Shown: positions 15,749 through 60,840 of the stretch, piece by piece
Position numbering within the stretch: position 1 is the first letter of the stretch
How the letters are laid out: each line of letters begins with the position of its first letter
NCBI GenBank assembly: GCA_017859785.1
Contig: JAFMMJ010000002.1
Span: 1-64,000 of the forward strand
DNA length: 64,000 nucleotides
Direction: 5' to 3'
Source of the DNA: Ilumatobacteraceae bacterium
GTDB taxonomy: Bacteria; Actinomycetota; Acidimicrobiia; Acidimicrobiales; Ilumatobacteraceae
Notes under the pieces: generated by a model
What the model was told of the DNA's origin: nothing
Seen by the model: the letters and a program-made list of their open reading frames with translations, nothing else
Databases searched by the model: none
Program-made: the position numbers and the translations under genes

Positions 15749-16012
15749 TCAGCGCTCGTAGATCGGCACCTCGCGACCGAGGTAGTCGCGAAAGAGCGCC
15801 AGCACCTCCCCGGGTTCAGCGTGTCGACCCGTCGAGTGCTTGGAGTAAATCACCTCGCCGTCGACCACTACGTCGAACACCCCGGCTGAGCCGGTCACCA
15901 GCGTCAATTCGGCGATGACGTGCTGGTAGTCGTGCATGATGTCCCTCGCCGCGCCCACGGCGCGGTCCGAATAGTCTCAAGGGACGCAGTAGGTAATCGA
16001 GACACGATGCAT
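15749..16012 (-). CDS. SelW/Rdx-family redox protein, predicted selenoprotein (in-frame UGA = Sec12)
   Basis: An 87-residue thioredoxin-like Rdx protein if the UGA at 15979-15977 is read as selenocysteine. The N-terminus MHRVSITY leads into Cys9-Val-Pro-Sec12, the CxxU/CxxC redox motif of SelW relatives. Further on, LTLVTGSAGVFDVVVDGEVI and YSK match the conserved second half of the family. A GTG at 15958 would give a 69-residue fragment lacking the whole redox motif and first strand, which makes no sense as a protein. A SECIS-like hairpin follows the UGA. The gene starts 10 bases after the stop of a small membrane protein gene, with AGGG as a modest ribosome site. No selA/B/C/D genes are in the window. 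Confidence 0.85.
15949..15979 (-). promoter_or_regulatory. Candidate bacterial SECIS element (UGA plus stem-loop)
   Basis: After the UGA (15979-15977) come 11 bases and then a perfect 7-bp stem CCGCGCC (15965-15959) / GGCGCGG (15955-15949) closed by a GUG loop (15958-15956). Eighteen bases separate the UGA from the loop and the first loop base is G. Both fit the general bacterial SECIS description of a G near the start of a small apical loop about 16-37 bases from the UGA. The hairpin lies inside the coding sequence, as bacterial elements do. Confidence 0.75.
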
Positions 16013-16022
16013 CGCTTCGACC

Positions 16023-16214
16023 CTACTCGTGACGCGTGGTGGCGTGCCGAGAGCGACGAAATGCTCCATCGGTGGCGAGGAAGACGAGGCACGCGACGGC
16101 CCAGATGACGCTGCCGATGATCACCAACCAATCACCGGTTCGGATGCCCGCCGCGAGGTAAACCATCGCCGAGGCGAGAAACAACAGCCAGCCAATGAGG
16201 TGCCCCCGACGCAT
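16023..16214 (-). CDS. Small two-helix membrane protein upstream of the SelW-like gene
   Basis: A 63-residue protein with two hydrophobic segments (LIGWLLFLASAMVYLAAGI and WLVIIGSVIWAVACLVFLA) separated by a short RTGDW loop, and a basic, His-containing tail. It ends 10 bases before the SelW-like start, so the two are probably cotranscribed and the small protein may anchor or partner the redox protein. I recognise no family. Hydrophobic pattern and codon use look genuine. Confidence 0.6.
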   Translation of the reverse strand: MRRGHLIGWLLFLASAMVYLAAGIRTGDWLVIIGSVIWAVACLVFLATDGAFRRSRHATTRHE

Positions 16215-17381: not shown

Positions 17382-17733
<352 letters not shown>

Positions 17734-58304: not shown

Positions 58305-59411
58305 GTGGCCGGGATCCGACTGCTGGTCGCCGGGGGTGGCACCGCCGGGCACGTTCTGCCCGCGATCTCGGTGCTCGAAGCCGCGATGGCCAGTGGGTAT
58401 CGGGCCGAGGAACTGCACTACGTCGGGTCCACCCGTGGGGTGGAGCAGGAGATGGTCCCGCCGCTCGGCGTGCCGTTCACCCTGCTGCGCGTCGTCGGGT
58501 TGCAGCGCCGACTCACCGCTTCCAACCTGCTCTTCGCGCCCCTCATGGTGGCGGCGGTCCTATCCTCGCTCGTTCTGCTTCGGCGCCGTCGACCGGCGGT
58601 CGTCGTGTCGGTCGGTGGTTATGCGAGTCTCCCTCCGGTCCTCGCCGCTCGGCTGCTTCGAATCCCGGTCGTCGTCGTGAGCTACGACCGGCGTCCCGGT
58701 CGAGCGAGCGCACTCAGCGCCCGGTTCGCAGCCGCGTCCGCTGTCGCGTTCCCTGATTCCGCGCTCCCGCGGGCGACGTTCACCGGCGCCCCGTTGCGCC
58801 GAGCCATCCTCACCGCCGATCGGGTGGGAGGTCGAGTGACGGCTCGGTCAAGGCTGGGCATCGACGACGACCGATTCCTCGTGGTCGCCCTCGGAGGCTC
58901 CCTCGGTTCGGCCGCCTTGAACGCCGCCGTCATCCGGCTGGTGGAGGACCGCATCGCTGATCGGGGGCTCGCGGTCATCCATCTCGCTGGCCGTCGATTC
59001 GTCGACGGGCTACCGGACGCGCTCGACGGTTCTACCGGAATCCTCTACGCGCCCTCGGGATTCAGCGACGAAATGGCGACGCTCTACGAGGCAGCCGATG
59101 TGGTCATTGGTCGTGGGGGTGCCAGCACGGTGCACGAGGTCGCCGCTGTCGGTGTCCCGTCGGTGCTCGTGCCGTGGGACGGAGCCGCCGAGGACCACCA
59201 GCGAGAGAACGTGCGTTGGCTCGCCGAGAGTGGAGGAGCGGTCGCGCTCTCGGAGATGGAACTCGGCGGACTCGGCTCGCTCGTCGATGAGCTCCGCGCC
59301 GACCGAGCCCGTCTCGACGACCTCGCGCGGCGAGCACGCGAGTTGGGTGAGGTCAGTCGGTCGGGACGCCTGTCGAAACTGATCGACGCGGTGGCGGATG
59401 GTGACACCTAA
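58305..59411 (+). CDS. murG: MurG-like UDP-GlcNAc--lipid I transferase
   Basis: A 368-residue GT28 enzyme that makes lipid II on the cytoplasmic membrane face. GGTAGHVLPAISV (His16), SVGGYASLPPVLAA, the LGGSLGSAALNAAV loop and GRGGASTVHEVAAVGVPSVLVPWDGAAEDHQRENV are in the expected order. The segment usually HEQN.x.PG.N reads SYDRRPGRAS (127-130 Tyr-Asp-Arg-Arg), so part of the acceptor loop differs. Start is GTG 58305, 14 bases after ftsW. Confidence 0.92.
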   Translation: MAGIRLLVAGGGTAGHVLPAISVLEAAMASGYRAEELHYVGSTRGVEQEMVPPLGVPFTLLRVVGLQRRLTASNLLFAPLMVAAVLSSLVLLRRRRPAVVVSVGGYASLPPVLAARLLRIPVVVVSYDRRPGRASALSARFAAASAVAFPDSALPRATFTGAPLRRAILTADRVGGRVTARSRLGIDDDRFLVVALGGSLGSAALNAAVIRLVEDRIADRGLAVIHLAGRRFVDGLPDALDGSTGILYAPSGFSDEMATLYEAADVVIGRGGASTVHEVAAVGVPSVLVPWDGAAEDHQRENVRWLAESGGAVALSEMELGGLGSLVDELRADRARLDDLARRARELGEVSRSGRLSKLIDAVADGDT

Positions 59412-60840
59412 CGTGACCGAGGTGAGCCCACAGCGCCTGCCGACGGTGATCCCCGACCTCTCGGAGCGGCGTCGGATTCACGTCGTCGGTGTCGGCGGGC
59501 CCGGGATGAGCGCGGTGGCGATCGCGCTCGCTGGCATGGGGCACGACGTATCGGGCAGTGACATCCGCGAGCGGCAGGTGCTCGAGCGACTTCGGGCCGC
59601 TGGAGTTCGCGTTCATATCGGCCACGACCGCCGCCACGTGCACGACTGCGATGTGGTCACCGCCTCCACGGCGATCCCCGTCGATCTCAACGAATTGGAC
59701 GAGGCGCGAAAGCGCGGGATCTCGGTGACGTCTCGAGCCGGAATACTCGCGGCGATCTGCGCGAGGACGGGTGCGCTCGCGGTGGCCGGGACTCACGGAA
59801 AGACGACCACGTCCTCGATGCTCATGCTCATGCTCGCCGCCGGCGACCTGCGACCAGGGTTCATCATCGGTGGCGACGTGGCTGACGTCGGCACTGGAGC
59901 GGAGTGGACCGGCTCGGACTGGTTTGTCGTCGAGGCCGACGAGAGCGACGGTACCCACAGCCACCTTCCCCTGGTTGGCACCGTCCTGACCAACATCGAT
60001 CGCGATCATCTCGACCATTTCGGTTCCTTCGCCGCCTTAGTGGAGAGCTTCTCGGAGTATCTGGATCGTGTGGAGGGGCCGCGGGTGGTCTGTCTCGATG
60101 ACCCGGTCGCCGGGCCGCTTGCCCGTCGACCTGACTGCGTCTCCTACGGGCTCGACCCCGAGGCGCGTTACCGCGTCGTCGACGTGGTCGCGGCCGATGG
60201 GCGACAGGATTTCGCCGTGGAGCACCCCGGTGGTCGAACCGAGGTTCGCCTGCCGCTCCGTGGAATTCACAACGCGGTGAACGCGACGGGGGCGTTCGCC
60301 CTCGCGGTGGAGATCGGCGTCGATCCTGATGTGGCGGCCCGCGCTCTCGGTGCCTTCGGCGGCGTTGCTCGCCGGTTCGATATTCGAGCGGTTGACAACG
60401 GAGCCACCTTTGTCGACGACTACGCCCACCTCCCCGCCGAGATCGCCGCCGTCCTCGCTGCGGCGCGTCACTCGGGTGATGGTTGGAAGCGGGTGATCGC
60501 GGTGTTCCAGCCGAATCGGTTCAACCGGATGTCGGAGATCTGGCGCGACTACGCCCACTGCTTCGCAGAGGCCGACCTCGTGGTGTTGACCGACATCTAC
60601 GCCTCTGGCACGACGCCGATTCCCGGGGTCACCGGCAAACTCGTGGTCAACGCCGTCACTGAGGCCGACCCGACGAGACGAGTGGTGTGGATGCGTCAAC
60701 GCGAGGACCTGGTTCGTTTTCTCGCTTCGGAGGTGGGGGAGGGGGACGTGTGCATCTCGATGGGCTGTGGCGATATCGCCTCTCTTCCCGATGAGATCGT
60801 CGAAGCCCGGGTGCGCAGCGGGCGGGGTTCCGCGGCGTGA
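59398..60840 (+). CDS. murC: UDP-N-acetylmuramate--L-alanine ligase
   Basis: A 480-residue Mur ligase, first amino-acid-adding enzyme. VHVVGVGGPGMSAVAIALAGMG, AGTHGKTTTSSM (ATP loop), EADESDGTH and the YAHLPAEIAAVL and FQPNRFNRM segments identify MurC. The ATG at 59398 overlaps murG by 14 bases; the GTG at 59413 two bases after the murG stop is an alternative. Its stop overlaps murB by four bases. Confidence 0.95.
   Translation: MVTPNVTEVSPQRLPTVIPDLSERRRIHVVGVGGPGMSAVAIALAGMGHDVSGSDIRERQVLERLRAAGVRVHIGHDRRHVHDCDVVTASTAIPVDLNELDEARKRGISVTSRAGILAAICARTGALAVAGTHGKTTTSSMLMLMLAAGDLRPGFIIGGDVADVGTGAEWTGSDWFVVEADESDGTHSHLPLVGTVLTNIDRDHLDHFGSFAALVESFSEYLDRVEGPRVVCLDDPVAGPLARRPDCVSYGLDPEARYRVVDVVAADGRQDFAVEHPGGRTEVRLPLRGIHNAVNATGAFALAVEIGVDPDVAARALGAFGGVARRFDIRAVDNGATFVDDYAHLPAEIAAVLAAARHSGDGWKRVIAVFQPNRFNRMSEIWRDYAHCFAEADLVVLTDIYASGTTPIPGVTGKLVVNAVTEADPTRRVVWMRQREDLVRFLASEVGEGDVCISMGCGDIASLPDEIVEARVRSGRGSAA

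Follow-up and report, generated by a model that had tools for sequence, protein, structure and literature searches.

A gene of 87 codons on the minus strand of the window (the whole stretch of 64,000 nucleotides analyzed here) almost certainly encodes a SelW-like CxxU oxidoreductase in which an in-frame UGA would be decoded as selenocysteine (Sec) by way of SelB and a SECIS hairpin. The gene spans the UGA in a single frame, the UGA and the hairpin behind it are conserved across homologs, and the genome carries the machinery for Sec use; from these observations we infer Sec insertion, expression, and a redox role for the product. The features concerned are as follows.

15749..16012, minus strand: SelW/Rdx-family selenoprotein gene, 87 residues with UGA (Sec) at residue 12 (from translation with TGA read as U, Pfam Rdx, and TIGR02174)
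15977..15979, minus strand: in-frame UGA, the predicted Sec codon, at the second redox position of CxxU in YCVPU (from TGA in 80/80 homologs and 30/30 further loci)
15949..15965, minus strand: putative bacterial SECIS hairpin (CCGCGCC-GUG-GGCGCGG) with a stem of 7 bp and its loop 18 nt downstream of the UGA (from a published model and compensatory changes)

The coding span runs from ATG 16012 to 15752 and is terminated by a second TGA (15751-15749); its translation with TGA read as U is MHRVSITYCVPUDYSDRAVGAARDIMHDYQHVIAELTLVTGSAGVFDVVVDGEVIYSKHSTGRHAEPGEVLALFRDYLGREVPIYER, with Tyr-Cys-Val-Pro directly before the internal TGA (15979-15977). An earlier note, made from the sequence alone, had described a single in-frame UGA between ATG 16012 and 15749 and had predicted that ordinary gene calling would report only a 69-residue fragment from GTG 15958; the sequence is exactly as claimed, and mechanical ORF calling lists only that short ORF. 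The frame extends 47 codons upstream of the UGA without a stop, with ATGs at 11 and 30 codons, and ATG 16012 is favored as the start because a start codon lies 10 to 15 codons before the UGA in most homologs. Across the window, 21 ORFs have a CxxU, UxxC, or TxxU motif around an in-frame TGA; the majority lack coding-type base composition and were dropped on codon composition. One long ORF that contains a TGA and a CxxU-like motif (59098-60840, plus strand) has a base composition resembling that of coding sequence and is possibly an out-of-frame or antisense artifact.

For protein searches, the UGA was entered as Cys. The read-through protein matches Pfam Rdx (PF10262) with 64.7 bits (E = 9e-18; curated cut-off, 22.6) and TIGR02174 CXXU_selWTH with 45.3 bits (curated cut-off, 34.2). 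The best-scoring NCBIfam model is the (seleno)protein model NF041051 SelTWH_Campy (73.6 bits, E = 1.1e-20), whose curated equivalog cut-off of 88 bits places the window protein outside that group. An AlphaFold model (pLDDT 95.8) has a thioredoxin-like fold in which the motif C9-V-P-U12 follows strand 2-9, and its fold matches are the Rdx proteins of PDB codes 2fa8, 3dex, and 2obk, with mouse SelW lower in the ranking. Among proteins of solved structure, the closest in sequence are Rdx proteins of the Cys type, which carry YCTQC at this position. The best of them (E = 2e-10), and also a top fold match, is the Cys-containing actinobacterial Rdx protein SAV_2001 (PDB code 3dex), which differs from the window protein in having Cys where the latter has Sec. 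Alignment to Cys-containing homologs thus bears out the earlier placement of the UGA at the second Cys of the Rdx CxxC redox motif: CxxC is what the solved Cys homologs have there. The gene resembles the bacterial SelW-like (SELENOW-like) family (PF10262 Rdx, CxxU) in fold family, CxxU motif, and small size, as well as in the scarcity of Cys homologs among Sec users and the bSECIS-type hairpin after the UGA (PMC1794560, PMC2398784, PMC13188914); it is set apart by its host, an uncultured member of Acidimicrobiia, and by a motif that is mostly YCVPU.

Homologs were collected by scanning the GTDB r220 contig collection, which gave 80 loci from Acidimicrobiia, Anaerolineae, and other lineages with 47 to 87% identity. 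All 80, each from another genome, have TGA at the aligned codon, so that the in-frame UGA aligns with the conserved Cys/Sec of homologs, as is expected of a selenoprotein. The scan was not biased toward TGA, because the sole pattern covering the UGA (one of six peptide patterns) was built with Cys. A second collection, consisting of loci from the class survey described below, has TGA at the site in 30/30 cases, with species that may overlap those of the first 80. Mean identity over 81 sequences at codon positions 1, 2, and 3 is 0.78, 0.82, and 0.52 over the 7 codons that precede the UGA and 0.77, 0.83, and 0.61 after it; further upstream it falls to about 0.27 at every codon position. This pattern of codon-position conservation argues that the sequence preceding the UGA encodes protein and indicates protein-coding constraint on both sides of it. 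The earlier observation is thus not a product of chance. A frameshifted or unconserved upstream region in relatives, which the earlier note had named as counterevidence, was looked for; the frame and the UGA are kept in 80/80 and 30/30 loci.

The published bSECIS model specifies a stem of 4 to 16 bp and a loop of 3 to 9 nt with G in one of its first two positions, lying 16 to 37 nt after the UGA with an energy of at most -7.5 kcal/mol (PMC13188914). The window hairpin conforms to it (7-bp stem, loop GUG, 18 nt, -12.8 kcal/mol), as do about 10% of random positions. A hairpin at UGA+17/18 is found in 67 of 81 sequences, against 9% of random positions; the full model is passed by 45/81, again against about 10% at random, and 36/81 miss its strict criteria. 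In a six-pair core aligned over 64 sequences, 88% of the cells are paired and four pairs have changes on both sides. Cells changed on both sides number 18, versus 5.0 in shuffles, a count reached by none of 500 shuffles (covariation score, 0.182 versus 0.114), and sliding the partners out of register gives a worse fit than the actual pairing. When the UGA region was folded as a single sequence, the window hairpin was no more stable than shuffles (z = -0.84); the SECIS claim therefore rests on cross-species comparison. We regard the covariation as good but not absolute evidence for a SECIS element, because this segment is also under coding constraint and the shuffle test is inflated by relatedness among the sequences.

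Next to the gene lies one further feature.

16023..16214, minus strand: predicted small protein of 63 residues with hydrophobic stretches, whose stop is 10 nt before the SelW start

This gene is possibly cotranscribed with SelW; among the 80 loci it accompanies SelW in only the two closest, L017 and L018. A phosphatase neighbor is conserved in nine of the 80, and the gene order comparison placed selA, selB, or selD beside SelW in none of them. The sole Rfam match in the window at gathering thresholds is a class A bacterial RNase P RNA (17383-17728, minus strand, 216.6 bits).

The window's own genome (1.96 Mb in 114 contigs, 98.8% complete) encodes selA, selB, selC, and selD, all four of which the earlier note had listed for a search. 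It has a tRNA-Sec with anticodon TCA (63.1 bits), a selB at 249.7 bits, just above the cut-off of 242.25, and a selD at 308.7 bits. A selA-like gene lies immediately upstream of selB on one contig; it was called by sequence and by this position rather than by a profile. At least two further UGA genes are present besides SelW. In the gene for an FdhA-type formate dehydrogenase alpha subunit (L129; G000:C110:60200-63600), an in-frame UGA at positions 1146-1148 of that locus, in the context NNIDSCNRT-U-HAPSV, aligns with the residue that is Cys or Sec in Fdh/HDCR chains of known structure, and the gene likely encodes another selenoprotein. A ResA/TlpA-like thioredoxin-fold gene on the minus strand (L130; G000:C1:18900-20300) has an in-frame UGA in the UxxC motif FWAPY-U-VTC and is probably the third selenoprotein gene of this genome. 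A search for AhpD-like proteins (PF02627) gave no match in the genome. That selenocysteine is used in this uncultured lineage, as the earlier note had proposed, can hardly be doubted.

We surveyed 295 genomes of Acidimicrobiia, scoring tRNA-Sec as present at a best E of 1e-10 or less, a threshold placed by eye in a gap. Of these genomes, 114 gave a hit to the SelW alignment that contains an in-frame TGA, whose position was read in 30, and 187 (about 63%) have a strong tRNA-Sec match. Strong tRNA-Sec matches occur in 104 of the 114 genomes with UGA-SelW versus 83 of the 181 without it (Fisher P = 1.2e-16, kinship ignored). The other ten UGA-SelW genomes all have SelB above the cut-off, and tRNA-Sec or SelB is present in 114/114. 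The only covering SelW match without a stop, judged by the absence of that stop, is from a genome (G004) that has neither SelB above the cut-off nor a strong tRNA-Sec; SelB above the cut-off is also absent from three other checked genomes without tRNA-Sec. In the genus to which the window's genome belongs, two genomes (G027 and G204) have tRNA-Sec and SelB and gave no SelW match, and the SelW gene is therefore dispensable. Within this genus SelW is thus patchy while Sec use persists.

Other readings of the UGA can be weighed against these data. Were it a true stop, the locus would be a pseudogene or would encode a short protein starting downstream at GTG 15958, and standard ORF calling does yield exactly that 69-residue ORF; yet the upstream frame is conserved at the protein level, the codon is TGA in every homolog read, and a protein starting only at GTG 15958 would be left without its first strand and redox motif, which makes a true stop highly improbable. 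Genome-wide reassignment of UGA to Trp, Cys, or Gly, or its read-through as Cys without the Sec pathway, would also account for the open frame, beyond which nothing was found in favor of this reading. The SelW gene itself, however, ends with UGA and its homologs with TGA, TAG, or TAA; tRNA-Sec, SelA, SelB, and SelD are all present; and, within the class, the occurrence of UGA-SelW follows that of the Sec machinery, so that we give reassignment very little credence. The fragmented draft state of the assembly (114 contigs) might suggest a sequencing or assembly error converting TGC or TGT (Cys) to TGA, but 80 other assemblies, with proteins as little as 47% identical, share this TGA; being independent, they refute such an error, whose probability is close to nil.

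On the selenoprotein reading, the product would be a SelW-like oxidoreductase of the Rdx family, with a thioredoxin-like fold and the redox motif CxxU. SelB carrying Sec-tRNA(Sec) would be recruited by the predicted SECIS hairpin 17 to 18 nt downstream of the UGA and would insert selenocysteine there. SelW proteins are thought to cycle through a selenenylsulfide, and the Cys-Sec pair of the window protein probably does likewise.

SelW-like CxxU proteins are listed among the bacterial selenoprotein families (PMC13188914), were noted to have few Cys-containing counterparts in organisms that use Sec (PMC1794560), and form the most abundant selenoprotein family in the Global Ocean Sampling data, with 427 Sec versus 56 Cys forms (PMC2398784). 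The earlier statement that such selenoproteins occur in bacteria and are common in marine metagenomes is confirmed by these reports (PMC2398784, PMC13188914), and our findings agree with the published picture. A literature search for selenoproteins with Acidimicrobiia or Ilumatobacter returned nothing relevant; as we found no paper joining a SelW-like selenoprotein to Acidimicrobiia, its breadth there may be undocumented. Tentatively, and with less than even confidence, we suggest that Sec use, particularly in the form of Sec-containing SelW, occurs broadly in Acidimicrobiia, where the Cys form is almost absent, and that this class may be a main, as yet unnamed source of the SelW-like selenoproteins dominating marine metagenomes. 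The window gene adds to a well-known bacterial selenoprotein family and is not new in kind; since the family is already known, the gain lies in annotation and distribution rather than in mechanism. It corrects a gene shortened by ordinary callers, and, with strong tRNA-Sec matches in about 63% of the genomes and UGA-SelW in 114, selenoproteins may have been annotated in truncated form in many genomes of this class.
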